Under the pieces are notes generated by a model. It did no database searches and was not told the DNA's origin. It saw nothing but the letters and a program-made list of their open reading frames with translations. 64,000 bases of DNA from Solanum dulcamara (Eukaryota > Streptophyta > Magnoliopsida > Solanales > Solanaceae). Shown piece by piece: positions 1 through 29,100 of the stretch. The position numbers and the translations under genes were made by a program. Location: contig NC_077244.1 of NCBI RefSeq assembly GCF_947179165.1, positions 69,362,144 through 69,426,143 of the forward strand, written 5' to 3'. Position 1 is the first letter of the stretch; each line of letters starts with the position of its first letter.

Positions 1-5
1 TTTTA

Positions 6-1508
6 TTATATAAAAAGGGACTCAAACAAAACCCTATTGCTCAAAAACTTTACAATACACTTATAAACAAACGAACCCGGGGGGGCAGTCTTATGGACTT
101 CCCGCACCGCCTCATCTAATTGAGCGTAATACGCACAATTATTTAAGGACTTTGACACATCTGCTAGAGAAATTCGGAATTCCTCGAGATGCTCCTTGTC
201 ACTGATATGCTTAGCCCCCAATTTGGATATGATTTTCAAGGGGTCAACATATACTATAGCACCTCTGTCATGATGAATAACGTAACGGCCGCAGAAATAG
301 CCATACGTTTTCTTGAACAGTTTAGCCTCAAAATTCCACATCAGATTTGCACAACTCTGTATATTGGGTAATTCACAACCCTTCGGTAAATAGACAAGAC
401 TATCATCGCCGCAAAATGCAGCCTTGATAACTTTCTCCATAGGTAACATTGAAGCCATACATGCTGCAATAATTACTGTATTACCAATAAAAGTTGTTAC
501 ATCACCACTCTTCCTTTGGTACCATAAACAAGTTTTGATACCGGCTGTGTAATCCTTTAGAGTTGTTTTTCTATGACCTTGTTTCCACACTTCCGCCAGG
601 AATTCATCTATTCCGAGCCTTTTCCAGATTTCGTACTCTACTGCACAATGGAACTCATTTTGGCTTTTGTCATATTTGCTCACATCAAGCTCCAACACTT
701 CCATCGGCTGATGAGCATCAAGATCAGAGAAAAATTCTTCAATTTGCTCTGGAGTTTTCCTTGTAAAAAATAAATACCTCGAAGTATCAATTGCAGATAA
801 CATCTGACGCGTAAGCTCCGAAAAAATCGGACCAAACAGCGCGTTGATCTTCTTCGAATGGTATACTATCGTTTGCAACGAAGGATACTCGCTCTGGATT
901 GACAAATCCAATTTTTGTTTCGGCTGGGCTTTGATGATATGTCTGTACTGATCTATGGCAGGTAAATCTACAAAATCGTAGTCCGCCAATTGACCAATAG
1001 TAGACTTCTCTTGTTTCTCCATCCAGCGAATGAGAGCTTGCCTATCTATAATATTTTTTCCCCCGGAGTCGCCTAAACTACAACCGGAGAGTTTATCTTT
1101 TAAAAAATAACTTTCAAAAAACCTATCAGCAACTACGGAAGCAGTATTTTCCATATCCACAGTACCAGAAAGCTCAGGACTGTTGAAATTCCTTTTTATC
1201 ATAGCAACCAAATTTTCCAGCAATCCCTGAGACCTAGGTTTTTCTGCGGCGGTTCTAATGACAGGCGTCATCGGAACTTTAACATTATCCTTCGGTAAAG
1301 GGACAGATTTGGAGAAGTCCAAAACGCAATCTTTAACATTAAGAGAAATGTCTGAACAGTTCATAGTAACAGCATCGAAATCATTCAATACTGTACTATT
1401 ACCTGGCAGACATTTATCATAGTAAAATTGCATATCTTGAGCATCTCCAGATTTGGGCGCTTGCACAAAAAGGTTTTCTGATAGATAAACACTGCTTACC
1501 TGTAATTG
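6..1508 (-). CDS. Endogenous tobamovirus polymerase domain, inverted copy
   Basis: Mirror copy of 5441-6943, with the same protein on the minus strand. The GDDS motif lies at 399-410 and the frame ends at base 6. It is the readthrough continuation of the minus-strand helicase frame across the TAG at 1511-1509. The two polymerase copies show no difference in their translations. The movement-protein start of this copy would lie just outside the window. Confidence 0.9.
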
Positions 1509-3115
1509 CTATGCACTCACACTATCTACCATATACACATCTAATAAGAAGTTACTCACACATTCTAAATCTCTGACTAATTTAACAAGAGGGTCTAAGA
1601 CTACGGTGTAATACTTGAAACTACGAGTATGCCTTGTTAATCCAACTAGTACATGAGGACTTTCTCTTGAGATTATGTGGATCGGAGTAGGGGTTAACCT
1701 AACCAAACTCACTTCATCATAAGTTTCGCCCTGAATCTCATGCACCGTGTTCACATCTTGGTAACCTCTGCCGAGCAGTGTTAATTTGTCACTCTGAGTA
1801 AATGTTACCACTTTCCCTTTCAACGGTTTAGTAACTGGATTCATTACAGCAGCGCCATTGACAACCTCTAAACCCACAGATCTTTGAGTTTTTGAAGTCG
1901 TTGTTACAGCGCCGTCGTAACACTGATTCAAGAAATGAGTTACGTCAACCGGACACCTCAGTGTTGTCCTCCTCTTCTCAGTTTCATCAACAATCAATTT
2001 GCTGAAATGCTGTGGAAACGGGAAATTTTGCACACGATTGATATAAGGAATTTGTTGAGTGTCTCCGAACACAAAAGCCTCATTGCACAAGCTTAGTTTA
2101 ACTAAAAAGTAAACACAGCCTGGATGGAGCATTAATCCTTCGTCAACAAATAACCTTTTGAATTGACACACCGGACCTTTACCTAGATTCATTAAAAATG
2201 AATCCACAGTCTTTACATTGTCATTGTTTGCCACTATTCTTCCACTCTGATTGGCTCTTTTCCTTATCATTGCTGCAGCTTCCTTCCCAGGTACTAAAAC
2301 CAAATCCTCGGAAAAATTCACTCTTCTAAGGATTTCCTTCGTTTTCCCACAACCTGGAACACCATCTACTAGTGTAACCTTTGCAGAACTCACAGAAATA
2401 GGCATATCACCTATCGACTTTCTCAGAACTCTCAATTTCGCCATATCAGAATAAACCATCGACTCATTAGAAACCGCCACTTTAGACCAATCTGCATCGC
2501 AAATAGGGCTTTCGTTGTCGTATGACAGAAGTGCTAAGACGCACTTTCCGTCAAACTTCTGAACAACCCCCCACGAATGGTTTTTCAACGTCGGCTTAAT
2601 CAACCATATTTTCTTGCGCGCGTCGAACACACCCACCTTTGATAAGCTATCTTGGAAACCAACGCTTGAATCTTTAACCAGCTTCTTCAAATTAGAGACT
2701 GTGGCCGATAGAGATGCTGCCAGACTGTCTACATAGTTTTGCATTTGTTGCACTTGTAGCGGTCCGGAGTAAACTATCGAAGCCATCTTGCTACTAATGA
2801 CTGATTCAGCTGCGAGCATATGATACTCTTCAAGACTATTGATTTCCTCGTTCCTCACAAAGGTGTCGCATGATATCTCGCTTGCAATTCCATATAGAGG
2901 TAAACTTCCGCTTGTAACCATCGATCTGCTTGTCAAGTCGGTGTTATCAGTTTGGGACTCCAGAGTCAATACTTCATCCTTTTCTCCACTTCTCATAGCC
3001 TCAGCTACGTTGCCTTCAGTCGGTTCTTTGAAAGGTAAGGTCACACCGCTCTCATTTGAAAGAACTGCTACTACGATCTTTGCAGCTATATCAGGATTGA
3101 CATTATTAATGGCAC
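1509..3115 (-). CDS. Endogenous tobamovirus helicase domain, inverted and shorter copy
   Basis: Minus-strand copy of the helicase region. It is shorter than the plus-strand copy: the viral part begins at 3115, about 230 codons further into the gene than the other copy. A few junction codons (3116-3134) precede it, and no ATG lies at the front, so independent translation is doubtful. Walker A, Walker B and the later helicase motifs are all present and identical to the other arm. The frame ends in the leaky TAG at 1511-1509. Confidence 0.88.
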
Positions 3116-3833
3116 TACAAGAAAACTTTGGCAATGCTCAATTCTGAGAAGATAGTGCTAGAAGACAGTTCTAGTGTCAACTACTGGTTCCCAAAGATGA
3201 AAGATATGGTAATAGTACCGCTTTTTGATGTCTCGTTAGAGACTCAGAAGAGGACGAGGAAGGAGGTAATAGTCAGCAAAGATTTTGTATACACAGTGCT
3301 AAATCACATCAGAACATATCAGGCTAAAGCTCTGACTTACAATAATGTGTTATCCTTTGTCGAATCTATCAGGTCGAGGGTAATCATTAATGGAGTTACA
3401 GCTAGGTCTGAATGGGACGTGGATAAAGCCTTGTTGCAAAGTATGGCAATGACCTTTTTCCTTATTACCAAACTTTCAATGCTTAAGGACGAACTGTTAG
3501 TGTCCAAGTTCACATTGAGTGCTAAAAGCGTGCACGAGCACGTATGGGAAGAGATAAAAAGAGGATGTGGTAACATGTTTCCCAGTCTGAAGGAAAGCCT
3601 CTTAAAAAGGAAAATGATTAGCGGATCTGCTGAGAAGCTGGAGATTAAGGTGCCGGATATGTATGTCACTTTCCACGATAGATTCGTGGCAGAGTACAAA
3701 GCATCTGTTGAAATGCCAACGATTGATATTTCAAAGGATCTGTCCGAAGCGGAGAGTTATTACTCCGCCTTGTCTGAATTGTCAGTCCTAGAGAATTCTA
3801 AAGATTTCGATCTTGAAAAGTTTTCTAGGATGT
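3116..3833 (+). other. Loop of the inverted repeat (single-copy viral segment)
   Basis: These 718 bases separate the two arms. From about 3121 they are viral coding sequence in frame with the right arm: the end of the methyltransferase region and the linker before the helicase. About 5-10 bases at 3116-3125 form the junction where the truncated 5' end of the left copy meets the truncated 5' end of the right copy, head to head. In a transcript this segment would be the unpaired loop of a hairpin. Confidence 0.85.
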
Positions 3834-5440
3834 GTGCCATTAATAATGTCAATCCTGATATAGCTGCAAAGATCGTAGTAGCAGTTCTTTCAAATGAGAG
3901 CGGTGTGACCTTACCTTTCAAAGAACCGACTGAAGGCAACGTAGCTGAGGCTATGAGAAGTGGAGAAAAGGATGAAGTATTGACTCTGGAGTCCCAAACT
4001 GATAACACCGACTTGACAAGCAGATCGATGGTTACAAGCGGAAGTTTACCTCTATATGGAATTGCAAGCGAGATATCATGCGACACCTTTGTGAGGAACG
4101 AGGAAATCAATAGTCTTGAAGAGTATCATATGCTCGCAGCTGAATCAGTCATTAGTAGCAAGATGGCTTCGATAGTTTACTCCGGACCGCTACAAGTGCA
4201 ACAAATGCAAAACTATGTAGACAGTCTGGCAGCATCTCTATCGGCCACAGTCTCTAATTTGAAGAAGCTGGTTAAAGATTCAAGCGTTGGTTTCCAAGAT
4301 AGCTTATCAAAGGTGGGTGTGTTCGACGCGCGCAAGAAAATATGGTTGATTAAGCCGACGTTGAAAAACCATTCGTGGGGGGTTGTTCAGAAGTTTGACG
4401 GAAAGTGCGTCTTAGCACTTCTGTCATACGACAACGAAAGCCCTATTTGCGATGCAGATTGGTCTAAAGTGGCGGTTTCTAATGAGTCGATGGTTTATTC
4501 TGATATGGCGAAATTGAGAGTTCTGAGAAAGTCGATAGGTGATATGCCTATTTCTGTGAGTTCTGCAAAGGTTACACTAGTAGATGGTGTTCCAGGTTGT
4601 GGGAAAACGAAGGAAATCCTTAGAAGAGTGAATTTTTCCGAGGATTTGGTTTTAGTACCTGGGAAGGAAGCTGCAGCAATGATAAGGAAAAGAGCCAATC
4701 AGAGTGGAAGAATAGTGGCAAACAATGACAATGTAAAGACTGTGGATTCATTTTTAATGAATCTAGGTAAAGGTCCGGTGTGTCAATTCAAAAGGTTATT
4801 TGTTGACGAAGGATTAATGCTCCATCCAGGCTGTGTTTACTTTTTAGTTAAACTAAGCTTGTGCAATGAGGCTTTTGTGTTCGGAGACACTCAACAAATT
4901 CCTTATATCAATCGTGTGCAAAATTTCCCGTTTCCACAGCATTTCAGCAAATTGATTGTTGATGAAACTGAGAAGAGGAGGACAACACTGAGGTGTCCGG
5001 TTGACGTAACTCATTTCTTGAATCAGTGTTACGACGGCGCTGTAACAACGACTTCAAAAACTCAAAGATCTGTGGGTTTAGAGGTTGTCAATGGCGCTGC
5101 TGTAATGAATCCAGTTACTAAACCGTTGAAAGGGAAAGTGGTAACATTTACTCAGAGTGACAAATTAACACTGCTCGGCAGAGGTTACCAAGATGTGAAC
5201 ACGGTGCATGAGATTCAGGGCGAAACTTATGATGAAGTGAGTTTGGTTAGGTTAACCCCTACTCCGATCCACATAATCTCAAGAGAAAGTCCTCATGTAC
5301 TAGTTGGATTAACAAGGCATACTCGTAGTTTCAAGTATTACACCGTAGTCTTAGACCCTCTTGTTAAATTAGTCAGAGATTTAGAATGTGTGAGTAACTT
5401 CTTATTAGATGTGTATATGGTAGATAGTGTGAGTGCATAG
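3134..5440 (+). CDS. Endogenous tobamovirus small replicase subunit, N-terminally truncated (helicase)
   Basis: Open frame of about 769 codons from the first ATG at 3134; the frame is open from 3110. It matches the C-terminal two thirds of a tobamovirus 126K-type replicase protein. Visible superfamily 1 helicase motifs are Walker A GVPGCGKT near residue 485, Walker B DEG near 558, GDTQQIP near 585 and a final GLTRHT motif near 727. Most of the N-terminal capping methyltransferase domain is missing, so this cannot encode a complete replicase. The frame has no internal stop, although as an integrated RNA-virus sequence it should decay without selection. It ends at a UAG in tobamovirus leaky-stop context (see 5438). 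No promoter is recognised upstream. The family assignment rests on motif order and readthrough architecture; I made no alignment. Confidence 0.9.
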
Positions 5441-5446
5441 CAATTA
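5438..5446 (+). promoter_or_regulatory. Leaky UAG readthrough site (TAG CAA TTA)
   Basis: The helicase frame ends in TAG followed directly by CAATTA. This fits the CARYYA context that lets ribosomes read through UAG in tobamoviruses to make the larger polymerase-containing product. The frame stays open after the stop until 6943. The same site is present in mirror image on the minus strand (TAG at 1511-1509). The site overlaps a sequence that looks like a plant splice donor, CAG|GTAAGC at 5447-5455. Confidence 0.88.
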
Positions 5447-6943
5447 CAGGTAAGCAGTGTTTATCTATCAGAAAACCTTTTTGTGCAAGCGCCCAAATCT
5501 GGAGATGCTCAAGATATGCAATTTTACTATGATAAATGTCTGCCAGGTAATAGTACAGTATTGAATGATTTCGATGCTGTTACTATGAACTGTTCAGACA
5601 TTTCTCTTAATGTTAAAGATTGCGTTTTGGACTTCTCCAAATCTGTCCCTTTACCGAAGGATAATGTTAAAGTTCCGATGACGCCTGTCATTAGAACCGC
5701 CGCAGAAAAACCTAGGTCTCAGGGATTGCTGGAAAATTTGGTTGCTATGATAAAAAGGAATTTCAACAGTCCTGAGCTTTCTGGTACTGTGGATATGGAA
5801 AATACTGCTTCCGTAGTTGCTGATAGGTTTTTTGAAAGTTATTTTTTAAAAGATAAACTCTCCGGTTGTAGTTTAGGCGACTCCGGGGGAAAAAATATTA
5901 TAGATAGGCAAGCTCTCATTCGCTGGATGGAGAAACAAGAGAAGTCTACTATTGGTCAATTGGCGGACTACGATTTTGTAGATTTACCTGCCATAGATCA
6001 GTACAGACATATCATCAAAGCCCAGCCGAAACAAAAATTGGATTTGTCAATCCAGAGCGAGTATCCTTCGTTGCAAACGATAGTATACCATTCGAAGAAG
6101 ATCAACGCGCTGTTTGGTCCGATTTTTTCGGAGCTTACGCGTCAGATGTTATCTGCAATTGATACTTCGAGGTATTTATTTTTTACAAGGAAAACTCCAG
6201 AGCAAATTGAAGAATTTTTCTCTGATCTTGATGCTCATCAGCCGATGGAAGTGTTGGAGCTTGATGTGAGCAAATATGACAAAAGCCAAAATGAGTTCCA
6301 TTGTGCAGTAGAGTACGAAATCTGGAAAAGGCTCGGAATAGATGAATTCCTGGCGGAAGTGTGGAAACAAGGTCATAGAAAAACAACTCTAAAGGATTAC
6401 ACAGCCGGTATCAAAACTTGTTTATGGTACCAAAGGAAGAGTGGTGATGTAACAACTTTTATTGGTAATACAGTAATTATTGCAGCATGTATGGCTTCAA
6501 TGTTACCTATGGAGAAAGTTATCAAGGCTGCATTTTGCGGCGATGATAGTCTTGTCTATTTACCGAAGGGTTGTGAATTACCCAATATACAGAGTTGTGC
6601 AAATCTGATGTGGAATTTTGAGGCTAAACTGTTCAAGAAAACGTATGGCTATTTCTGCGGCCGTTACGTTATTCATCATGACAGAGGTGCTATAGTATAT
6701 GTTGACCCCTTGAAAATCATATCCAAATTGGGGGCTAAGCATATCAGTGACAAGGAGCATCTCGAGGAATTCCGAATTTCTCTAGCAGATGTGTCAAAGT
6801 CCTTAAATAATTGTGCGTATTACGCTCAATTAGATGAGGCGGTGCGGGAAGTCCATAAGACTGCCCCCCCGGGTTCGTTTGTTTATAAGTGTATTGTAAA
6901 GTTTTTGAGCAATAGGGTTTTGTTTGAGTCCCTTTTTATATAA
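5441..6943 (+). CDS. Endogenous tobamovirus RNA-dependent RNA polymerase (readthrough domain)
   Basis: In-frame continuation of the helicase frame after the leaky UAG, 500 codons ending in TAA at 6941-6943. It has no ATG of its own near the start, as expected for a readthrough product. Polymerase palm motifs are visible: motif A with DVSKYDKSQ near 6263, motif B around GNTVIIA near 6463, and motif C GDDS at 6539-6550. The frame is complete and uninterrupted over the whole polymerase, unlike most old endogenous viral copies. Without the methyltransferase region and a viral 5' end it should not be replication-competent. The mirror copy is at 6-1508 on the minus strand. Confidence 0.92.
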
Positions 6944-6947
6944 TAAA

Positions 6948-7283
6948 ATGTCAAAAGCTATTGTCAAGATCGATGAGTTCATTAAGTTGTCCAAATCTGA
7001 AGAGATTCTACCTTCAACATTCACTAGAATGAAGTCGGTTAGAATATCAACGGTGGATAAAATTATGGCCAATGAAAAGATCTCTCCGTCGGTTTTTGAG
7101 GCCTCCCTATTTAAAGACGGAAATTTTAGTTTAAGTTTACATTATGTATTATATTTTTACAAGTTAAAACGGTCGATGAAGAAATTACCGTCGATTTCCA
7201 AGGCCTTCCATGTTTATAAGACGAATGCTATTTTTAGTTATTATTATTATTATTATTATTATCATAATCATCATCATTATTAA
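6948..7283 (+). pseudogene. Truncated tobamovirus movement-protein start
   Basis: The ATG at 6948 lies four bases after the polymerase stop, the position of the movement-protein gene in tobamoviruses. The first 45-50 residues, including [12 protein letters not shown] and the following VDKIM, look like a tobamovirus movement-protein N-terminus. After about 7090 the translation becomes low-complexity and runs into a TTA repeat ending as poly-Tyr/His, so the viral homology is lost inside this gene. No coat protein or viral 3' UTR follows. The frame can also be read from an upstream ATG at 6924, which overlaps the polymerase end and is probably irrelevant. Confidence 0.75.
7230..7283. repeat. TTA/CAT microsatellite at the viral 3' edge
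   Basis: A run of TTA units is followed by CAT-type units. It lies just after the point where movement-protein homology is lost and marks, within about 150 bases, the passage from viral to plant sequence. Confidence 0.85.
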
Positions 7284-7289
7284 TATTTA

Positions 7290-8340
7290 TCCCTCACTAA
7301 CACTTTATCAAGTCTTTTACAGGTATTCAGAACTGCTTTCCGAGGAAGCTATTCGAATTAAGTTCGAATAATATTTTAAATTTATTATTGTGTATATTAT
7401 TGACGTTAGACAAATATTAGGCCGTTCCTTATATTATTGCTTTAATTTACTCTTATGTATATTTCATTATATATTTGTGCAATATTTTTTATCTCCTCAA
7501 TTTAAAAAATGAGTTCAGTTGGGATTCACAGTTGTGGATTTTTGAAGGATGCTAATACCTTCTCTTCGGAATAAATCCATTGGTTTTGCAGGCATTTTAA
7601 AATAATTAATTGGTTTTTTTAATTATCCTAAAATTATGGTGACTCATTAAATTAAACTATTTTTGAACAATCGAATTGATTTTTTTACGAATCACCATGA
7701 CATTGCTCCTTATTTGCAAAAAAAAATAATATAGAGATGTAACAGTTATTATAGTTACGCATCTGAACCCACCATATAATAGAATTCTATTTTTTATAGT
7801 ATATATAAAGATACATATATTTAAAAATTATTTTAATTATTCTCTACTAATATTTTGTCAAGCATTTGTATTCAGAGATATTTTACAAAAAATAATATTT
7901 AATAGTGTTCTTCTTTTCATATGGTAAAAGAGTTTTTTTTTCTATACATTTATATTATTTTCTCATATTTTTATACATATAGTTGACAATAACATACATT
8001 ATTTATTTGATTCATATTCTTTTTATACATATGTTTTATATAATTTTAATAAATATTTTTTACATATATATGTGTTATACTTGCAAAATAGTAATATTAT
8101 CCCTCCCTCATTGATAAATTAAGTCTAGCCGGGTACTACATTTTGTGGATTTCAAAGGATGCCTAACACCTTCCCTTTGGAATAATGTAAACCCTTACCT
8201 AGAATCTAAACTGGTTTTTCGTAGATCGAAACGTGAATCATACAGGTCATGCATCAAATAGGTTTTCCTTATTTTCCTTAATAAATTAGGTGGCGACTCT
8301 ATACAATAATCAATCCTTTTAGAGTCAATATGTTGTGCTT
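7290..8340 (+). repeat. Two diverged direct repeats, LTR-like
   Basis: Two related stretches follow each other. Both begin with a C/T-rich ACTAAT-type stretch, then TTTTGTCAAG-like and GTATTCAGA-like words (7292 and 7842). Both later contain TGTGGATTTT(G/C)AAAGGATGC-like text (7535 and 8142), then ACCTTC(C/T)C and a GGTGACTC/GGCGACTCT end (7645 and 8291). The second resembles the end of a widespread Solanaceae Ty3/gypsy-type LTR, but I saw no gag-pol between them. They could be two solo LTR fragments or a tandem duplication. Confidence 0.4.
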
Positions 8341-8655
8341 TATCTAACCTCGGTTAAAAATAGGGCATAACAATGCACACCCCTACTAATGGGTGCCTTG
8401 TTGACGACAAATGTGTCTTTGAAGAAGGCATATTCGTCATTGAAAGGGAGGTGATAATTAGTGAATGTCTGTCCATGTCCTTGCTTTGTCTTACTTCAAG
8501 TGGAAGGGAGGGTAAAATGGGTTGGAGTGTTGAGGTGGCATGCCACGTGGTCCACCTCATGAAAATGTTAGTGTCACGTGGAATTGGGTGTCCACTTTGG
8601 ACAGCCCTAACAGAGAAAGGGGTATTTTTGAACCATATAGGTAAGGGATGGGTAT
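8341..8655. other. Spacer before the old copia element
   Basis: About 315 bases holding open frames in both directions (around 8354-8693) but no recognisable protein or repeat. Codon patterns do not suggest a gene. Confidence 0.5.
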
Positions 8656-8950
8656 TGTTTTTATTACAATTCAATTTCGTTAAGCACACTTAAAAGAAGT
8701 TGTTAGTGGTGGTTAGAAGGTTGTTAGGAGGTATATGGGCCATGTGAGTCTGTTAGAGGAACATGTCAGTGAACGCTCTATATATATAGAATGGTGTATG
8801 GATCCTGTGGATTATAACAAAAATGTGATACTTCTCTTAGGCAGAGAGATATGTAGCTACTGAGTTTTGCTCTGCATCAATATTGTTTAATACAACAATT
8901 TCTTCTTGTTTTGCAAGTGTAAGAATGTATGTAGATTCTGCAAATTAACA
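8656..8950 (+). repeat. 5' LTR of old copia
   Basis: About 295 bases ending TTAACA immediately before the primer-binding site. Clear identity with the 3' LTR starts at GTTAAGCACACTT (8678). The start at TG 8656 is inferred from the length of the partner LTR and is uncertain by about 20 bases. Confidence 0.75.
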
Positions 8951-9037
8951 TGGTATCAGAGCTTCTAGTTGCGATCGAGATTCAGTGAGATACATCTAGT
9001 CTAAAGAGGCCATTGTTCGATTTCTCAAGCTTCGATA

Positions 9038-12000
9038 ATGGTGGAAAATCAGAATCCTCTAGCTACTGAGGATCCTCAAGTAGATCCTCAAACAAATCAC
9101 AATCATCCGCTGCACCTACCAGCATCGGACATTCCCGGAGTTGCTTTAATATCGATGAAGCTCACAGGCCCTGAGAATTATGACGTGTGGAGCAGGTCAA
9201 TGCGTCTCGCGTTACTAGTCAAAAACAAACTTGGATTTGTGGATGGCACCTGCGCGAAGAGCTCATACAAAGGAACGATGCTAAATAAATGGGAGAGGTG
9301 TGATGCAGTGGTACTATCGTGGATTAGTGCAGCTATTGCACCGGAATTGTTGACAAGCATAGTTTATGCTTCTAGTTCAAAGAAGATCTGGGCAAATTTC
9401 AAGGAAAGGTTTGATAAATCGAACTTAACTAGAATCTTCTACCTATGGAAGGAGATCAGTATGTTAACACAAGGAACAAACTCAGTCACAACCTACTACT
9501 CGAAAATGAGAGACCTATGGGATGAGATCGATGTGATGGTACCAAGTCCTTCATGTGACTGCGAGACATCTATGCCTTACACTTAGCTCATCAAACAACA
9601 ACAACGATTATTGCAATTTCTGGTTGGCTTGACTGGGAGCTTTGCTCAAGTAAGGAGCTCTATTCTCCTGAATGCAAATATTCCTAGTGTAAATCAGGCA
9701 CATTCGATGGCTATACAAGAGGAAAGTCAGAGGAAGTTAGGAATTGTAGATGCAGGAAATGACCCCTTGATAATGCTGGCAGGAAGAAACTTCAACAATC
9801 AACAGCACAATCAAGGACAAGGAAGGTATCAACACAATCGGTCATCTGGTCATCATTCGCATGGTCACTCAACGCAAGAGATCAGGAATTATTTGTGAGC
9901 ACGGTGGTTACAAAGGACACACTAAGGAAACCTGTTATAGGATAGTAGGTTTCCCCACAGATTTCAAAAGTAAGAGGAAAGCAGAAAATGAAGATTTCAA
10001 ACCACAAGCCAACAATACAACAGATGAAGTTGAAGGTAGTACATGAAAGCAATTGAACTCTACTGAAGGTAGCACAGGAAAGCAATTAAACTTTCCAGGA
10101 GGTTTTTTTACCAAAGAGCAGTATGAACAAGTGTTAGGAATGATGAGTCCCACTCCAACAGGTAGTTGCAAGGCAAATGCAGCAGCAGGTATGAATACTT
10201 TGAGAAGTGCTTGTTCTGATGTAGAATGGATTGTAGATTCAGGTGCTTCACATCACACAACATATTGTGAAGAACTCTTAAATGTGTCCAGATCAGTAGA
10301 TGATTCAAGGAACAATAAGGTCCAAATTCCTACAGGAAATAGAATTCCAATTGAACACACTGGAGATACAATTATCTTAGGAAAATATTGCCTGAAGAAT
10401 GTGTTACATGTGCCAAATTTTAAATTCAATTTGTTGTCAGTTTCCAAGCTCACCAAGGATTTAAGTTGTATGGTGTCCTTCTATCCTGACTTATGTGAAT
10501 TGCAGGCTCTCTTCAGTGGGAAGGTGATTGGGATTGGTAGGGAGTTTGATGGTCTTTACATTTTGAAGCTTCATGTAACACCAACATTTGGAGCTGTTAT
10601 AAAAGACAAAAAGGACCAAAAGCTATGGCATCTAATGCTGGGACATCCTTCTATAGGAATCATGAAGCACATAGTGACATCAAAGCATAAAGTTGATGAT
10701 GATGTTCAACAAGAATGCATGATATGTCCATTAGCTAAGCAATGTAGGTTGAAGCTTCCAGTTAGTACTTCCAGTACTACTAATTGTTTTGAATTGGTTC
10801 ATCTGGATACATGGGGTCCCCATAGACACCCCACCTATGATGGAAAACATTATTTCTTGAAAATTGTGGATAATTACATTAGATTCACCTGGATCATGTT
10901 GATTCAATCAAAAAAGGAGGTAGTATTAGTATTGAAGCATTTTATCTCTATGATCTGTAATCAGTGTGGTGTTGAAATAAAAGTCTTGAGATCAGATAAT
11001 GGTACTGAATTCTCAAATGCTAGTATGACTGACTTGTTGCTTCATCATGGGATCATTCATCAGAGTAGTTGTCCATACATACCTCAGCAGAATGGTGTTG
11101 TGGAAAGAAAGCATAGACACATATTAGAGATAGGCAGAGCTATAAAATTACAATCCCATATTCCAAGTAGATTTTGGGGTACATGTGTGTTGACAGCTGT
11201 TTATCTCATTAATAGATTGCCCACTGCAGTGCTAGGTGGAAAGTCACCTTAAGAACTATTGTTTCAGCAACCACCCAATCTTGATCACTTAAGGGTGTTT
11301 GGTTGCCTATGTTTTGCCACCAGATTTCCAAAAGGAGACAAGTTTGCTGCCAGGGCTAAGAAGGCAGTATTCATTGGATATTCATCTACACAGAGTGGAT
11401 ATAGACTCTATGATATAGAAGCAAAGACTGTATTCATCAGCCGGGATGTGATTTTCAGAGAACAAGTATTTCCTTTTAAAGAAGATGAGTCACAGAGTGA
11501 TCATCTACCTTTGCTCTCACCTTTTGTGCATGATGCAGGTACATTGGTTGATAACATACCTGATAAGGTTCATGTTGCTGACCAATCCATTCCCGTCCCA
11601 GAGGATTCTGAACCATCTCATGAAGGGACTCCTGAGCTAGGGATTCTGGCCTCTACTAAAGACAATTTGGATCCTGCAGATCCTGTTGAAGATATGTTGG
11701 AACCTGAAGCACCAACCCTTTCTCAAGAGATAGACCTGGTTGTTCCACCTGGTCCCAGAACGACAGGAAGGACATCCAAACCTCCCATTTGGATCAAAGA
11801 CTATGTTGTACCATCTAAGACCAGTTTTTACTCTATTACTGATCATGTGCAATATGATCATCTGTCCAGTAGATATCAGGGATATGTCCAGTCTTTTTCA
11901 GCCTTGCTTGAACCTCAACCATTTCAAGAGGCTTCTCAAGATGACAGGTGGATTACAGCAATGCAAGAGGAGATCAAAGCCTTGGAAGACAGCAATACAT

Positions 12001-13470
12001 GGTCTATTGTGGATCTTCCACCAGGAAAAAAGGCCATTGGCTCCAAATGGGTATATAAGATTAAATATAAGGCTGATGGTGAGGTGGACAGGTTTCAAGC
12101 CAGGCTGGTAGCAAAGGGTTATACTCAGAGGGAAGGTTTGGACTATCATGAGACTTTCTCTCCGGTTGCAAAAATGGTGACAGTCAGGACAGTCATCAGT
12201 TTAGCTGCTTCCCATGGCTGGGAGTTGTACCAAATGGATGTAAGCAATGCCTTTCTCCAAGGTGATTTGTATGAGGATGTGTATATGGACTTACCTCTTG
12301 GGTTCACCAGTCGGGGAGAATCAAGTCTGCAAGCTCCAAAAATCCCTCTATGGTTTGAAACAAGCATCAAGGCAATGGAACATTAAGTTCACTGATGCTT
12401 TGTTACAAGTAGGATATTGTCAAAGTGCACATGACCATTCTTTATTCACCAAGAAGCAGGGGGATGACATAATTGTGCTTCTGGTGTATGTTGATGATCT
12501 ATTGATCACTGGAACCAGCTCCACCGTGATTGCAGAAATCAAGTCTACTTTACATCATCACTTTAAGATGAAAGACCTGGGCAAGCTAAGATATTTCTTG
12601 GGCATAGAGGTAATGCAGTCCAAAAATGGAATCTTACTAAATCAAAGGAAGTATGCACTTCAATTCATCTCAGATACAGGTCTTAGTGGTGCCAAATCAA
12701 TCAGCACTCCTGTTGAATTCAATCACAAGTTCACAAGCTTGGCCTTTGATCAGCACATGTATTACTTCTAATCCAGTGCTGGATGATATTACAGCATATC
12801 AGAAACTTATTGGGAAATTGATTTATCTGACCATCACAAGGCCAGACATTTCCTCTGGAGTTCAAGTTTTAAGTCAGTTCATGCAACAACCAAAAATGTC
12901 ACATTGGGATGCAGCCCTTAGAATTGTGAGGTATATCAAGAAATCTCCTGGTCTTGGAGTCTTTCTGAAAAGAGGAGCTACTCCAGAGTTGATTGGGTAC
13001 TGTGACTCAGACTGGGCTTTCATGCCCAAGCACTAGGAGGTCTGTGACTGGGTAAGTACTCAAATTGGGGGATTCTTTGATCTCTTGGAAATCTAAAAAA
13101 CAACAAAACTGTGAGCAGAAGTTCTGCTGAAGCAGAATACAGGAGCATGGCAACAGTTGTTTCAGAATTGGTTTGGCTTACAGGATTGTTAAAAGAGTTG
13201 AATGTACTGTCTGAGTTCCCATCCAACGTTTTTCAGATAGCAAAGCAGCAATTCAGATTGCAAGCAATCCCATCTTTCATGAGAGAACCAAACATATTGA
13301 GATCGACTGTCATTTTATTAGAGACAAAGTGAAGTCTGGATTCATAAAACCTCAGTACTTGTGCACTACTATGCAGCTGGTTGATATATTGACTAAGGGA
13401 CTTGGAACAGATCAACATGAATTTTTACCCTCCAAGCTAGGTGTGTTGGATGTGTTCCAACCACCAGCTT
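9038..13470 (+). pseudogene. Copia gag-pol polyprotein, disrupted
   Basis: Gag begins at ATG 9038 and is broken by a stop at 9584, a frameshift near 9880 that interrupts the zinc-knuckle region, and a stop at 10044. The next frame (10053-11252) has the protease core DSGAS near 10235, the GAG-pre-integrase domain near 10620, and the integrase residues LDTWGP (10804) and RSDNGTEF (10990). After a TAA at 11250 the same frame continues into reverse transcriptase, which is frameshifted near 12330 inside the GLKQASRQW block. YVDDLL follows near 12487. A further frameshift near 12750 precedes RNase H (CDSDWA near 13000), and another lies near 13050. At least three stops and four frame changes make the element incapable of autonomous movement. 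Confidence 0.9.
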
Positions 13471-13481
13471 GAGGGGAGTAT

Positions 13482-13773
13482 TGAAACTCAAGTTAGTTAA
13501 GCACACTTAAAAGAAGTTGCTAGTATGTTAGTGGTGGTTAGAAGGTTGTTAGGAGGCACATGGGCAACGTGAGTCTGTTAGAGGAACAGGTCAGTGAACA
13601 CTCTATATATAGAAAGGTGTATGGATCCTGTGGATTATAACAAAAATGTGATACTCCTCATAGGCAACGAGATATGTAGCTACTGAGTTTTACTCTGCAT
13701 CAATATTGTTCAATACAACAATTTCTTCTTGTTTTGCATGTGTAAGAATGTATGTAGATTCTGTAAGTTAACA
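13482..13773 (+). repeat. 3' LTR of old copia
   Basis: Starts TGAAACTC right after the purine tract and ends GTTAACA. It shares the TATA-like CTCTATATATAG block and the TTTCTTCTTGTTTTGCA block with the 5' LTR. Confidence 0.85.
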
Positions 13774-18144: not shown

Positions 18145-21100
18145 ATGGAAAAATACTGGTTTTGTTTTCTTATTATATTTTGGTTTGTTTTGTTAATTGT
18201 TCAAAAAGTGGTGATTAGTCTCTGTTGGAGACCAAGGAGAATCCAAAATCATTTCTTGAAGCAAGGGATTAGAGGTCCTAAATACAATTTTTTATTGGGT
18301 AATCTTAAAGAGATTGCTGATTTACAACCTTCATCATCTCAGCACTTCCCTTTATCCCATGACATTGTTCCTAGAGTCCTTTCCTTCTATCATCACTGGA
18401 AGAATATCTATGGTATGCTTGATTTACATTCTATTAATTTATTTTGTCACTGTTTGGATCTGATTGAATTGGCTAAGAACAATATCTAGGTTATGCATAA
18501 AGGTGTTTACCGTTTAATTGCAAATTAAATTATAGCATATATATAGTCCAATTTATATAACTTAAATGTAATTGCATCATTTTTATTAGCATCTATATAT
18601 CTCAAGAGGAACTATTTTCTGTTTATTAATTATATGCCAACGTCTTCCTCTTGAACTTGAATTAGTACTAAGTTGAGTTTTAGTTATATGTACAATACAA
18701 CAAAAACGATCTTTAGCGGCAATTAATTAACGGCAATAACTCAATTACTGCTAAATATGTATTTTTAGAGGCAACTAACATTTTTTGTGAATGTCACTAT
18801 AGCCTATAGCGACATTGAATCTAATGGCAATTAACTAATGCCGATAAAGATTTTATCACTCTTTGTTAATGTGTATGTTTATTGCCGCTAAAAGATGTTA
18901 ATATTGTAGTAGCATTGACGGTGCATAAAATATTTTATTCGATCAATATATGATGAACTATGAGTTGATGGTAGCTAGGTAACTAGCATTTCAAAAGTGA
19001 GTACTGTATGAATTATATATATCGTTAATGTGTGCATAAATTCTTAATCTATCAGGTCATCTAAACAAGTATATATGCCTTCACAGAACATGGTATTTAA
19101 TTTATAATTTTAAAATTAAGGTAAACTAACTGCTACTACAGACAAAGATCAATGACATGAGTGTGACCTAGAATAACATGCATGTTATAACATTGATGGT
19201 GTATAAATTATTATTCACGGCATGAATTTATATAACTTAAATCCCTAGTAATTAAACCTCTAATAATTTTTTCTGTTATATATGTATCATGGTACAGGTG
19301 CAACATTTCTTGTGTGGTTTGGGCCAATAGCTCGTGTCACCATCTCAGATCCAACGCTAATTAGGGATATCTTCCTTTTAAAATCAGACAGCTTTGAGAA
19401 AACTGAAACACCTTCATCCGCCAAGAAGCTCGAAGGCGATGGTTTGTCCAATCTCAAAGGAGAAAAATGGGCCCACCACAGAAAGATATTAACTCAAACA
19501 TTTTACTCAGAAAATCTCAAGGCGAGTGGGGTTTGATATTCTAAAACAACAACCTCAAATGCTTTGTCAAACAATGACAAAAGTCTCACATTGGTGGTTA
19601 ATAAAATGGGTGAACTCCTTATAAGTTTTGGGCAATCCTCCTCTCTTTGAGCTAGCTTTTGGGGTGTGAGTTAGCCCTAAGACCTAAGTTTACATGGTAT
19701 CAGAGCCAAGTCAATCCCCATTTGAGCTCCCGATGCACGCTTCAGTTGGGCCTGGGCGTGAAGGGGGTGATAAAGTAGGTAAAAACTCACACATTAGTTG
19801 GGGAATGAATTTGGTGGTCTCTTTATATGGACTTGGACAATATTCCCCTTATGAGTTAGCTTTTGAGGTTGAGTTAGGCCCATTTGCCATATTTTTACAA
19901 TACTAATTATAACGGACTTCTAAATTTAATATTTATACATATAATATGGATTTCTTAACATGATAATGTTTGGACATTCTACTGAACCCTATTGCTTCTT
20001 TCTTCTCGAAATAAGTTTAACTTGTATACGCTGACATCTATCATTTTTCTTAAAAATTAAATAGCTAATGATTCCTATGATGGGGAAGAGCATGAAGGAT
20101 ATGTTGAACAAATGGTCGTCAAAAATGTCGAACGATGGCAAGGTGGAAATTGAAGTTTCAGAATGGTTCTTGAGATTGTCAGAAGATGTGATTACACATA
20201 CGGTGTTCGGAAGCAGCTATGAAGATGGAAAGACCATATTCGAGTTGCAAACACAACAATTGGCTTATGCCACTAAAGCTTTTCAACAAGTTTTCATTCC
20301 CGGATTTAGGTGCGTGCTCCTCGATCCCTCACAAAAGATTAAAGGAGTGTAACTTATAATGAATGAAATGAATCACATGCCGGTGAAGGACAAGAAGTCT
20401 GGGCTCCTTATAAGATTGCTTGCACAATCCTTCTTTCTGATGCGTGAATTAAGTCTAAGGCCTAATTTAATATGGTATTACAGTCAGATCAATGTGGGCC
20501 CTAAGAGTATCAGACATGAATTGTAAGGTTAGAAATACACAACAAACTAGATAAAATTAGAGAATGTCCAGTTTTAGGCGAAAAGAGGTGAATAAAATGA
20601 TAAATCCACATTGATAAAGGACAAGAACCCCTAGGCGATGATGAATGGAATGAATCCACACCTCAGCTATACATACAATGTTAAATTTGAATACATACTC
20701 AATTTCAGAGTATTGACATAGCTCAAATTTAAAAGGTATTATTATTTCTTTATATTTTTACAGGTTCTTGCCTACTAAGAAGAACATAATTTCTTGGAAA
20801 TTGGACAAAGACGTTAGAAATTCATTGATGAAGTTAATTGAGCATAGGAAAAGAAGTTTGGAGTGTCATCTATGGGAGGAAGGTCCGAAGGATTTGTTGG
20901 AAGTAATGATCAAAGCTAGTAGTTCAACTTATTCAAATATACAAGTTGATGACATCGTAGAGGAATGCAAGACCATGTTCTTAGCTGGCAAATATACTAC
21001 CTCAAATTTGCTGACATGGACGACCATTCTATTGGCCATGAATCCTCACTGGCAACAACTTGCACGTGACGAGGTCTGCAACGTCTGTGGAGCAAGTGAT

Positions 21101-22419
21101 ACCCCATCTAAGGACGATATTGCAAAGCTTAAGACGGTATGCATAAAGTTATACACCTTCTCTCTTGTTTACTAATTACTAATAATGAAATGTTTTTACA
21201 TAATCAATCAAAAGTATATAATCTGTTTAAGAAGGTTACTTTGATTTATTTAAGGTTATCAATCTCACCACAGTTATTTTTCAGTGACCTTGATAACATG
21301 AAATATTTATATTTGTGTAAAAATTAGACTCCTTTTGTCAGAGTTTTTATTTTATATGTACACGTCGAGAGTGTAAAATATTTTGTGTTTTCGATCTATT
21401 CTTCTTTTTTTTTTTACTTGTTTTAGCAGATTAGTGATTCTTTTTTCTAGGATACCATCTAGTATGTGACGTACACCCTCGATCACTAATCCAAATTCAT
21501 TGTAAGGTCCATTAAAGGGAAGTACTTCATATTAGATTTTTCACTTCTATTTCAATTTAAAACCTTCAATTAAGGCGGATGTGATGATGATATATAACTT
21601 GTCAAATTTTCTAGGTGATTAACTCTACTTCTTAATCATTGATAATTATTTTCTAAGTGACGTGTTTTCTCCATTCCAATTTATTTGTCTTTTTGTTTAA
21701 AGAAGAACATCTACTTTCTTTTTTGACAACTCTTTAATTTTAACTTTCCACGTTACATGTTTGAGATCACAAAATTAAAAGACATGTTGATAGATTGAAC
21801 AGTCTCATTACTTTCTTAAACTTTGAGTTAAGTCAAAACTAAAAGAACAAATTGAAACAGAAGGAATAATAATTATTTGTGTAAAATTATTTTTTACTTC
21901 ATTAGCGAATAGAAGTTAATTAAACTGTTTTTTCTTACTTTCATAAAAAAGATGTTCACTCATAATTCATGTGGTTCAACTTTGTAATGGCAGCTTGGTA
22001 TGATCCTGAATGAATCCCTCCGACTATATCCACCTCTTGCGGCAACAATGCGACGGGCCAAAATGGACACAACATTGGGAAACTTGAAGTTGCCTCAAGG
22101 GACAGAGCTACTTATACCGACTATAGGAATCCATCATGATGCAGCATTATGGGGCAGCGATGTGAATGAATTCAATCCAGCAAGATTTGCTCGCGGCGTC
22201 GCCCAAGCAGCCAAAAGCCCCACTGCATTCATGCCTTTCGGCTTAGGCGCCCGCCACTGCATTGGACAAAATTTAGCAATCATACAAGCTAAATTAGCAA
22301 TGGCTATGATCTTGATGCGCTTCTCCTTTGAACTTGCTCCTACTTACCAACATGCTCCTACTATTCTTATATTCCTATGTCCACATTATGGAGCTCCAAT
22401 CATCTTCCAGAAATTGTAG
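18145..22419 (+). CDS. Cytochrome P450, CYP72 clan, CYP734A-like
   Basis: Five exons: 18145-18412, 19298-19521, 20065-20309, 20764-21136 and 21994-22419. They join in frame to 511 residues, a normal P450 length. Residues 1-25 form a hydrophobic membrane anchor for the endoplasmic reticulum, followed by WRPRRI and a GIRGP hinge. The I-helix is AGKYTTS, with Tyr where many P450s have an acidic residue before TT. The K-helix NESLR, the NPARF block and the heme loop FGLGARHCIGQ with Cys459 as the iron ligand are all present. CYP734A enzymes inactivate brassinosteroids by C-26 hydroxylation, so this may be a hormone-catabolism gene; CYP721-type relatives are an alternative. Intron 2 appears to use a GC donor (AAG|GCGAGT). 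Introns 2 and 3 hold TRIM-like insertions. No stop or frameshift was found, so it is probably functional. Confidence 0.85.
19565..19925 (+). mobile_element. TRIM-like miniature LTR element in P450 intron 2
   Basis: A primer-binding site TGGTATCAGAGCC at 19695 follows a first terminal repeat (about 19565-19694). A short interior ends in an AAGGGGG purine tract (19761-19767), and a second, diverged terminal repeat follows (about 19768-19925). Shared words include CACATT followed by GGTGG/GTTGG, CTTATA(A/T), GGGCAAT/GGACAAT, GAGCTAGCTTTTG/GAGTTAGCTTTTG and GAGTTAG. There is no coding capacity. Confidence 0.6.
20375..20660 (+). mobile_element. Second, decayed TRIM-like fragment in P450 intron 3
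   Basis: Contains CTCCTTATAAG, GCACAATCC, TCTAAGGCCTAA and then TATGGTATTACAGTCAGATC, a mutated version of the LTR end plus primer site of the element in intron 2. The words ATGAATG(A/G)AATGAATC occur on both sides (20358 and 20640). Confidence 0.4.
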
Positions 22420-26100: not shown

Positions 26101-29100
26101 GTCTCCAATGTCCAATTCGTTGCGACTAAAATAATTTCCCCTTGACTTTTTGTGTGTCACATTTAAAACACTCAAATGTAATTATTTTACGGAAAAGGGC
26201 CAGAATTATCCCTAAACTTTGAAAAATAGTTTATTTATGCCCTTCGTTCTACTTTAGGGCCAATTATACCCCTACCGTTATACTTTGGGCCAAATATGCC
26301 CTTGAGTATAACAGAATGCCAGGTGTCAGTTTCTCAGTGGTCAACTTATTTCCCCTTTTAAATATGTTTTTTTAATTTTTTTAAAATCTGTTTTTAAAAC
26401 CATTTTTTTAAAATAATTTATTTAAAAAAATCTATTTCGTTTTTTTATCTATTTTTAAATCTTCTTTTTAATTTATTTTTTTAAAATCTGTTTTTTATGT
26501 ATTTTTTACAACATGTTTATTTTATTTTATTTTAAATTTGTTTTTAAAATAAATTTGCATTCACAGATTTAAAAATATATATTTAAAAAGCAGATTTAAA
26601 AATAGATTAAAATGGATTTAAAAAACATATAAAAACAGATTTTAAAAGCAAATTTAAAATAAAAAATTTTAAATCTGTTTTTTTATGTATTTTTTACAAT
26701 ATGTTTATTTTATTTTATTTTAAATTTGTGTTTAAAATAAATTTGCATTCACAGATTTTAAAAAAAAATAATTTAAAAGCAGATTTAAAAATAGATTAAA
26801 AAATTGGATTTAAAAAACATATAAAAAACAGATTTTAAAAACAAATTTAAAATAAAATTTTAAAAAAACTGATTTTAAAAAATAGATTAAAAAACAGATT
26901 TAATCTCAAGGGCATATTTGGCCCAAAGTATAACGGTAGGGGTATAATTAGCTCTAAAGTAGAACGAAGGGCATAAATAAACTATTTTTCAAAGTTCAGG
27001 GATAATTTTGGCCCTTTTCCGATTATTTTATTACCGTCAGTGATGAGATCTGCTAATGTAAAACATATTGTGTGCTTTATGAGTCTACAGAAAAAAATAA
27101 TTTAGATGTGGACTTTAGTTGCTTCTTATGTATGGTTTCAGGGTAAAGAATTATTTATCAACAAAAAACAAAGGAATTATGTGAAGATATTGTTTAGATT
27201 GATATAAGCTACTACAATAATTAGTTATCTTTCCAATTAGATGTGTGGGAACATGAACAGATAATTGAATATATTTTAACTGTAGGAAGCACCAGCTGTT
27301 GTTAAATCCTACTACGATAAAAGAATTGTAGGATGTCCAGGAGATGAAGGAGGTAAGTCTTCATTACAGATTCAGATAAATAATGTCTCTATTACTGATT
27401 TTTTCCTTTAGCCAGTTCACTTAATCTTCTTTATGGTTTTGTAATTTAACAGAAGATGAGCATGATGTTGTTTGGTTCTGGCTAGAGAAGGGCAAGCCAC
27501 ATGAATGCCCAGTATGCAAACAGTATTTTGTGGTAAGTGCAGAATTTCTATATTCTTGGGCCATAATATCAAGTTCTAGGCTGTTAGGGAATTTTTAGAG
27601 ATGTGAAAGGCCATGGCACTCCTTAATCAGGGGAAATTTGAGATTCCTTTCAGCAATAGGGGTGACATTTTCCCTCTTTTTTTTTCCTTGCAATTTTTGA
27701 ACAACATGTGGGACATGACAGCAGGTTGCATTAGAAAAGAAGCTACCGAGGTTCTTGGGGTATCGAGAGGAATCTTTGGTGGTCGTCAAGGAGATTAGTG
27801 GTGGAATGGAGAAGTACAAGGCAAAGTGAAAGCCAAGAAGGTTGCCTCTACGGAGTGGTTGGAGTGCGTGGATGAGGAGGAGAAGAATAGGCTTAAAGAT
27901 ATTGATAAGAAGGCAAAGATGAAAGCGAAATCGGCGGTCATCAGTGTTAAGACGACAACTTTTGAACGCCTGTATGTCGAGTTATGGTAAAAAGGTGGGG
28001 ATAAGAGATTGTATAGCCTCGCCAAAGCGAGAGAGAGAAAAGCACGCGATCTGGATCTAGTAAAGTGCATCAAGGACGAGGAAGGTGAAGTGTTAGTGGA
28101 TGAGACCTCTATCAAGCAAATGTGCAAGCTTACTTCCACAGATTCCTAAATGAAAAAGGAGACAGAGACATTGTACTGGGTGATTTGTCTTACTCTCATA
28201 GTCTTCGAGACTTTGGGTACTGCAGGTGTTTTAAGGTTGAGGAGGTTAGACATGCTGTTAGCAGGATGAGGAGGGGGAGAGCGACTGGGCCTAATGAGAT
28301 TTCGGTGGACTTTTGGAAGAGCACTGACAAGACAGGTTTAGAGTGGTTGACTAAGATGTTTAATGTTATTTTAAAGACTGCTAAGATGCCTGATGAATGG
28401 AGGTGGAGTATTATGGTTCTATTGTACAAGAACAAAGGTGATGTTCAAAACTGTAATAATTACAGGGGTATCAAACTACTAAGCCACACTATAAAGATTT
28501 GGGAGAGAGTGGTGAAGATGAGGGTGAGGAGAGGAGTGTCAATCTCAGAGAACCAGTTCGGATTCATGCTGGGGCAGTCGACTACTGAAACAATCCATCT
28601 TATGCAGAGACTGGTGGAGAAATTTAGAGAAAGAGAAATGGATCTCCATATGGTGTTCATTGACCTTGAAAAGACTTATGATAAAGTTCCGAGGGATGTT
28701 TTTTGGATGTGTCCGGAGGCTAAAGATGTCCCGAGGGTGTATATTAGGACGATAAAGGACAGGTATGCTGGAGCCAAGACTCGGGTTAGGACGGTGGGAG
28801 GTGACTCAAAGCATTTTCCTATTGAGGTGGGACTACATCAGGGATCTGTGCTGAGCCCTTTTCTTTTTGCCTTGATGATGGATGAGCTTACACGGTCTAT
28901 TCAAAAGGAGGTTTCATGGTATATGCTATTTGCGGACGATATAGTTTTGATTGATGAGACTCGGGACAGAGTTAATGATAGGTTGGAGGTTTGGAGACAA
29001 ATGCTGGAGTCCAAAGTGTTCAAATTGAGCAGGATCTAAACAGAATACTTGGAGTGCAAATTTAATGTTGCGATGGATGAAGAGGGCAAGGAAGTGAAGC

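Follow-up and report, generated by a model that had tools for sequence, protein, structure and literature searches.

The window analyzed in this study, 64,000 nucleotides of Solanum dulcamara chromosome 8 (positions 69362144-69426143), opens inside a long palindrome of tobamovirus sequence, the features of which are listed in Table 1. A repeat search of the window found one inverted pair (1-3115 and 3834-6948) of 3,115 nt, 100% complementary and with 718 nt between its arms, and a base-by-base comparison of the two in-window arms gave 0 mismatches, in agreement with the arms of at least 3,115 bases and the loop of 718 bases claimed in the initial annotation. These arm limits arise because the window edge cuts the palindrome. 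In the assembly, from which the structure is read, the whole palindrome occupies 69360720-69370515 of chromosome 8 (9,796 bp, window -1423 to 8372), and its full arms of 4,543 bp differ by one mismatch and one gap, that is, they form the long near-perfect inverted repeat characteristic of a hairpin-RNA locus. Arms of such length are not a chance match. The loop starts at a W residue of the 126K protein and covers the last part of the methyltransferase domain (PF01660, E 7e-9). The viral DNA adjoins plant LTR and copia sequence and thus has host flanks; the window belongs to the interior of the 79.5-Mb chromosome 8 (assembly 942 Mb), and a contig-end fold-back artefact, suspected from the window edge, was dropped on that ground.

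Table 1. Features of the chromosome 8 palindrome and of the insertion that contains it (window positions)
Feature	Position	Strand	Remarks
Left palindrome arm within the window (antisense to the virus)	1..3115	-	extends to window -1423
Tobamovirus RdRp part, left arm	6..1466	-	frame open
Tobamovirus helicase part, left arm	1509..3110	-	frame open
Fold-back point, 6 bases TGGCAC	3110..3115	.	common to left arm and loop start
Single-copy loop, virus sense	3110..3833	+	718 bases plus 6 shared
770-aa open frame, loop and helicase part of 126K	3128..5440	+	96% identity, Obuda pepper virus P0051
Right palindrome arm, virus part	3834..7065	+	helicase, leaky stop, RdRp, movement protein start
RdRp part, right arm	5483..6943	+	frame open; 91% identity to P0001 (compared with database proteins led by P0001, not with Obuda pepper virus by name)
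Movement protein start, cut at LTR junction	6948..7065	+	first 39 codons
LTR 3' part, 1.31 kb, read as R-U5	7066..8372	+	ends GGGCATAACA; outermost right arm
Target duplication ATGCA, right copy	8373..8377	.	left copy ends window -2506

Profile searches identified the tobamovirus helicase (PF01443, E 5e-56) and RdRp (PF00978, E 2e-158) in both arms, and ToMV_Hel_N and RdRP_2 domains in the viral part. Two helicase-plus-polymerase copies thus stand head to head, and the natural tobamovirus replicase hairpin in a plant chromosome that had been proposed from the window is borne out by the domains and by the chromosomal location; the earlier reading of the arrangement holds, and what it lacked were the LTR family and the two sister palindromes described below, both invisible in the window. 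The 770-aa frame of 126K shares 739 residues with Obuda pepper virus. Judged by its sequence, the viral part is an endogenous tobamovirus element, derived from a virus close to Obuda pepper virus. In the right arm, the helicase and RdRp parts are separated by the leaky stop context TAG CAATTA, and the movement protein start gives a weak match to PF01107 (E 0.003), which falls short of the curated cut-off. Scans of IMG/VR with both the helicase and the RdRp found no relatives. For an Obuda-like virus of S. dulcamara, the protein is given as 91% identical to Obuda pepper virus over an amplified part of 247 residues (PMC13120279); the identity is 96% for the chromosome 8 part of 126K against 91% for the part of that virus. 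An origin of the Obuda-like reads of that paper as transcripts of the chromosome 8 locus was considered in making this comparison.

The palindrome sits inside a 10,878-bp insertion, extending from 69359638 (TG start) to 69370515 (CA end) of chromosome 8, with the ends TGTTGACACC...GGGCATAACA and the 5-bp target duplication ATGCA on both sides; TG...CA ends with a short target duplication are those of an LTR retrotransposon insertion. In its outer 1.3 kb, each palindrome arm consists of the 3' portion of a retrotransposon LTR, and the PBS (GTT plus TGGCGACTCTGCTGGGGA) adjoins the palindrome in inverted orientation, on the left side only. Two direct LTRs around a PBS, an internal region and a polypurine tract are absent from the chromosome 8 insertion, which is one composite LTR-ended unit. 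Its PBS copy joins U3 at TCCCCAGC. Of 17 non-viral LTR stretches compared, 5 have this sequence in that context and 12 lack it there, although several of the 12 may end before the site. The 34-base PBS-U3 junction occurs twice in the genome, on chromosomes 8 and 3. Since the U3s at these two loci represent different subtypes (59 bases missing from the chromosome 8 U3 are present in that of chromosome 3), the jumps onto U3 appear to be separate. A solo LTR formed by LTR-LTR recombination was also considered: no donor with the same composite LTR was seen (both RdRP_2 matches in the genome are those of chromosome 8); an old donor may be lost.

On chromosome 8, the virus-LTR join coincides with the point below a promoter-like stretch common to 12 of the 13 non-viral copies viewed, which carry a TATA-like motif some 25 bases upstream (CTATACATA in 9 and CAATACATA in 3). 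The join point (window 7066; the TGGCCAATG point in the canonical LTR) is read as the predicted transcript start, from which we infer where R begins. The chromosome 8 element lacks the part of the LTR that carries the TATA-like motifs. A canonical copy of the family on C23 has the two-LTR layout and the target duplication ACTGC, as read from its ends. Neither Gag/Pol nor any listed frame longer than 79 aa is present in L013 1-2903, part of the 3.57-kb internal region of this copy, and the LTR family is read as non-autonomous. Rfam searches at gathering thresholds gave no match in L011, L014 and L015.

Chromosomes 3 and 11 each carry a further palindrome of the same LTR family; these two contain tymovirus replicase, and their virus-LTR joins lie at most 5 bases from the join point of chromosome 8. 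The three loci have three different centres. In genome-wide counts, which cover the viral helicase and RdRP_2 profiles, all six viral-helicase matches fall inside the three palindromes and both RdRP_2 matches inside the palindrome of chromosome 8. Of 170 R-start sites, the 100 listed include divergent pairs less than 15 kb apart only in the three palindromes. The chromosome 3 palindrome belongs to a more complex, multi-part insertion, and the chromosome 11 locus has a third, partial virus copy and, over the 40 kb read, lacks a U3, so that the clean final product is seen only on chromosome 8. The three virus captures look independent, and non-palindromic insertions of other virus families may exist in this genome.

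We suggest that the chromosome 8 unit is, in all likelihood, a single integrated DNA. It would stem from aberrant reverse transcription inside a particle of the non-autonomous LTR retrotransposon into which tobamovirus RNA had been taken up. Minus-strand DNA primed at the PBS would copy the 1.3-kb U5-R to the 5' end of the retrotransposon RNA, after which its end would jump to tobamovirus RNA, landing near codon 40 of the movement protein, and continue toward the viral 5' end. Near codon 340 of 126K, a short complementary match (6 bases at the tip, with 10 more close by) would let the DNA end fold back and prime the copying of its own strand via the helicase, RdRp, movement protein start and R-U5 into the primer, giving the PBS copy. 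Finally, the end would jump by an 8-base match onto the LTR U3, yielding DNA that correctly begins with TG and finishes with CA, which integrase would insert with the 5-bp target duplication. We infer the step order and the primer from the sequences, junctions, duplication and genome counts observed; the fold-back would be later than the virus-LTR join because the palindrome holds the LTR part on both sides. In the viral part, the fold-back tip GTGCCA has a single occurrence, at the site where copying would have resumed, and complementarity equal to or better than that at the fold-back was found at 3 of 400 random points. Such a route would give virus hairpins by construction, and the tymoviruses on chromosomes 3 and 11 were probably caught by a route of the same kind. 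The proposed sequence of steps is deduced from a single end product.

An ordinary virus insertion, doubled later in inverted orientation by break repair of the DNA, appears improbable: fold-back repair can give inverted duplications, but here the whole unit lies inside one target duplication, the PBS copy and the jump onto U3 are features of reverse transcription, and three loci have a common virus-LTR joint and palindrome form. Very improbable is a hairpin made as RNA by the viral polymerase and then reverse-transcribed and inserted; copy-back defective RNAs indeed combine a fold-back with a unique loop, but the LTR part, which viral RNA would not carry, is mirrored on both sides within the palindrome, which is therefore not a hairpin of viral sequence only. 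Long perfect palindromes are a recognized type of assembly artefact, arising as false palindromes from fold-back reads. This explanation has an equally slight chance, given the location inside a chromosome of a HiFi assembly (27-fold, QV 57.2, as described in PMC10585204), the loop, the mismatch between the arms, the unlike ends and the target duplication, and three such loci with different centres.

If the chromosome 8 hairpin is transcribed, processing by Dicer-like enzymes would be its expected fate. As the element is without the TATA-like LTR stretch, transcription would need another promoter. Further, perfect inverted repeats of plants are described as tending to methylation and self-silencing (PMC9263138), so that an antiviral role is not to be assumed. 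We consider it somewhat probable that the locus is an inert by-product, that is, a failed retrotransposition product, methylated, untranscribed and without effect on infection: the promoter-like part of U3 is lost, the repeat would be prone to the self-silencing just mentioned, and at so young an age (1 mismatch in 4,543 bp) nothing indicates that selection has long maintained it. Against this, three seemingly independent captures in one genome make siRNA production, at least, worth testing.

It is doubtful, by comparison, that the locus serves antiviral silencing, its transcripts forming dsRNA from which Dicer-like siRNAs would restrict matching tobamoviruses; such a role would be compatible with the retrotransposon origin. 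In its favor, the arms are near-perfect over 4.5 kb, a virus hairpin transgene is reported to give resistance in plum (PMC6423057), and both an Obuda-like tobamovirus (PMC13120279) and the Dulcamara mottle tymovirus (PMC7284659) are recorded from S. dulcamara. However, the role is a predicted one, the TATA-like LTR stretch is missing, perfect inverted repeats readily undergo methylation and self-silencing (PMC9263138), and the few mismatches between the arms are also explained by youth alone. Slightly more doubtful is a heritable memory of RNA viruses, in which the LTR family would make chromosomal hairpins, with infecting RNA copied at the end of strong-stop DNA before the fold-back, and siRNAs would protect the offspring against the same viruses. 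Every viral-helicase insertion found (3/3 loci) is a hairpin, and viruses of both kinds are on record from this host (PMC13120279, PMC7284659).

The junctions suggest a concrete route, used repeatedly by one LTR family, by which plant RNA viruses may enter chromosomes, and its product is a hairpin, the same structure as that of engineered virus resistance. Heritable virus memory in plants becomes directly testable at three loci, with public HiFi and RNA-seq data for S. dulcamara (PMC10585204), a species from which viruses of the captured kinds are themselves recorded. The few differences between the arms indicate very young captures, and such palindromes would date virus encounters.

Pieces of plant RNA viruses in chromosomes are known, and what is added here are palindromes with LTR junctions. 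In mouse cells, an LTR retrotransposon reportedly recombined with an RNA virus, and the resulting cDNA became integrated (LCMV-IAP, Geuking et al. in 2009); that case was experimental, concerned an animal virus and is not known to involve a fold-back. Hairpin transgenes with virus arms, which serve RNAi resistance, are man-made and have a promoter, whereas the chromosome 8 locus is natural, no promoter of the LTR was found in it and its siRNA output is only predicted. PAI is a host gene. Its PAI1-PAI4 arrangement in Arabidopsis Wassilewskija is likewise a chromosomal inverted repeat (PMC9263138). In mosquitoes, too, antiviral small RNAs arise from DNA that was copied from RNA viruses (PMC6797480), but the pathway is that of animal piRNAs and the small-RNA role is demonstrated, while it is only predicted for the S. 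dulcamara palindromes. The nodavirus-like element of Bursaphelenchus xylophilus (PMC5177903) is also a positive-strand virus replicase within an LTR element; in this nematode the element is of the Bel/Pao type, the virus protein lies between two LTRs, and the word 'inverted' does not occur in the main text of that paper. Finally, the endogenous plant virus sequences of Chiba et al. 2011 (PMC3136472) are likewise RNA virus pieces in plant chromosomes; a retrotransposon reverse transcriptase was suspected there and the mechanism called unknown, and the words 'tobamovirus', 'tymovir' and 'inverted' are absent from the main text. In S. dulcamara, by contrast, a route is indicated by the junctions, the PBS copy, the LTR ends and the target duplication, and what results is a palindrome.

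The virus palindrome on chromosome C8 is larger than the initial annotation, confined to the window, could show. The exact inverted repeat described there (window arms 1-3115 and 3834-6948, 100% complementary, with a 718-base spacer) showed zero mismatches in a base-by-base check, and its chromosomal location holds (C8:69362144-69426143, in an assembly of 942 Mb in 32 contigs). The arms, put at "at least 3,115 bases", extend beyond the window: the full palindrome occupies C8:69360720-69370515 (9,796 bp), and its arms of 4,543 bp each differ by one mismatch and one gap. Both copies of a tobamovirus replicase noted there were found, with a helicase and an RdRp in each arm, with uninterrupted frames on the left and right alike, while the loop contains the end of the viral methyltransferase. 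A 770-residue frame on the right side is identical to the Obuda pepper virus 126K protein at 739 positions (96%), and the RdRp part has 91% identity to the database protein P0001. The leaky stop reads TAG CAATTA on the right side; the left arm has TAG. For the assembly, daSolDulc1.2 of Solanum dulcamara, the available text of PMC10585204 gives 27-fold HiFi sequencing, hifiasm and QV 57.2.

The palindrome lies in a 10,878-bp unit that starts with TGTTGACACC at 69359638 (window -2505), ends at window 8372, and is flanked by ATGCA on both sides. The unit consists of a 1.05-kb LTR start, an inverted primer binding site (PBS), the inverted LTR 3' part, antisense virus, the loop, sense virus, and the LTR 3' part; the LTR middle is missing. 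The C23 copy of the same family is a two-LTR element with 5.49-kb direct LTRs, a 3.57-kb internal region, and the target duplication ACTGC. Its LTRs have the same start, a middle, and then a 3' part of the C8 type ending in GGGCATAACA. No listed frame exceeds 79 aa in the part of its internal region examined (positions 1-2903 of the fetched stretch L013).

Features of the three palindromes and of the window
Feature	Position	Remarks
3' part of LTR	right copy window 7066-8372	outermost 1,307 bases of each C8 arm
C3 palindrome	C3:78221459-78232571	11.1 kb, enclosed by same LTR part as C8
C11 palindrome	C11:53579128-53590226	11.1 kb, enclosed by same LTR part as C8
Degraded copia element	window 8662-13773	frames for gag, integrase, reverse transcriptase; adjoins C8 insertion
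Cytochrome P450 pieces	window 20768-22419	
Reverse-transcriptase (RVT_1) frame	window 28122-29692	
Second copia element, apparently young	window 33376-38016	1,182-residue open frame
DUF1644 gene	window 55462-56283	among named proteins closest to Solanum (88%)

Direct repeats of about 290 bases at window 8662-8950 and 13479-13773 may be the LTRs of the degraded copia element.

Two further palindromes, on C3 and C11, carry tymovirus sequence. Over 5,537 bases the C3 arms differ by three mismatches plus a 3-base gap; the C11 arms differ by one mismatch over 5,522. Pieces of their long frames match the viral methyltransferase, the tymovirus endopeptidase (PF05381), and the viral helicase; one C3 piece matches the RNA replicase polyprotein chain 4a5u_A, which we take to be the TYMV protease. 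The final pieces beside the LTR gave no family match. In an ungapped comparison of 1,200 codons, C3-C11 differences number 91 at first, 55 at second, and 479 at third codon positions; one of 12 blocks of 100 codons is unusual (2, 4, 7). This is the pattern of viruses under selection, and thus the two were probably captured separately. Genome-wide, both RdRP_2 matches are the C8 arms, and the six viral helicase matches (20 candidates scored) come one per arm from the C8, C3, and C11 palindromes. With 0.65 to 1.3 substitutions per site every 100 million years, the arm differences give ages of about 7,000 to 42,000 years for the three palindromes with a wide error (1, 3, and 1 events), and gene conversion, copying errors, or polishing could move this estimate in either direction.

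Aberrant reverse transcription is the best reading of the origin of the C8 palindrome. An end-of-template jump would join LTR-copying DNA to the virus, the DNA end would then fold back, self-copying would continue into the primer, and a second jump, onto U3, would be followed by integration of the finished molecule. Since the mirrored sequence includes the LTR part, the virus must have been joined to the LTR before the fold-back.

At the first junction, the virus meets the LTR at window 7065/7066. Sixteen further LTR stretches were retrieved, and the 12 whose alignment begins at this point were inspected alongside C23 (n = 13; L020 and L021 are both LTRs of a single element); L026, L029, L032, and L033 were excluded because their match starts elsewhere or is broken. 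A promoter-like stretch directly upstream is common to 12 of these 13 copies, the exception being L024, and contains CTATACATA (nine copies) or CAATACATA (three copies) at -25/-26 and CTATAGAA at -47/-48. We infer that this point is the R start, the presumed transcript start. In C3 and C11 the joints are at most five bases from it, at almost the same viral place, which the common TGGCC letters may explain. The R-start 35-mer has 170 sites genome-wide with up to three mismatches. Among the 100 matches listed, the exact ones (19) represent 13 loci, three of them the C8, C3, and C11 palindromes, and divergent pairs up to 15 kb apart occur only in these palindromes. The sequence upstream of the R start in L024 (C3:10110695-10118195) is very different, which might reflect a rearranged U3 or a further capture.

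At the fold-back, the loop frame follows the virus from window 3110 and the left arm mirrors up to 3115, leaving six bases in common. The minus-strand end additionally matches the resumption site across AAAGTTTTCT, and that site holds the only GTGCCA of the viral part. Equal or better complementarity was seen at three of 400 random points. The C3 and C11 centers comprise mere tens of bases; by our reading these are reverse-complemented sequence from the viral 5' end. The two fold-back points are unlike each other.

At the third junction, the inverted PBS meets U3 at TCCCCAGC. Of the 17 non-viral LTR stretches (C23 and the 16 retrieved), five have this sequence in the same context (C23, L020, L021, L023, and L028); it was not found in the other 12, some perhaps too short or too diverged. 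The 34-base PBS-U3 junction (up to three mismatches) occurs twice in the genome, in C8 and C3. The C8 U3 lacks 59 bases, as do L020 and L021, whereas the C3 U3 retains them, as do C23, L023, and L028; therefore the two jumps look like separate events. No U3 was found at C11 within the 40 kb read.

The C3 palindrome is within a multi-part insertion, with pieces of an older LTR subtype around it; a full internal region adjoins it (C3:78218494-78239217; L014, L015, L034). Immediately outside the C11 palindrome (C11:53577821-53579084; L016), part of the tymovirus 5' region is present for a third time, in line with further template switching.

As to function, the C8 palindrome is probably an inert by-product; that siRNAs are made without protection is distinctly less probable. 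The antiviral role suggested in the initial annotation, siRNA-based protection of the plant, is favored by the hairpin structure itself, by the recurrence of virus palindromes, and by records from S. dulcamara, in the available texts, of an Obuda-like tobamovirus (RT-PCR, one of eight plants; PMC13120279) and of Dulcamara mottle tymovirus (PMC7284659), but it is unlikely given the promoter-like LTR stretch missing from the unit, the youth of the locus, and the self-silencing of perfect repeats described in the accessible part of PMC9263138. In the tobamovirus survey (PMC13120279), both ObPV-like contigs, which came from solanaceous weeds including S. dulcamara, align according to the text available solely within the RdRp region (47 reads), and transcripts of C8-type loci should be excluded before such reads are called infection.

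By titles and abstract starts, no natural virus hairpin of the C8 type was found in the literature, which is weak evidence because the search was confined to open-licence PMC text. Judging from the portions available, the closest cases in print are those of Chiba 2011 (PMC3136472) and the nematode nodavirus capture (PMC5177903).
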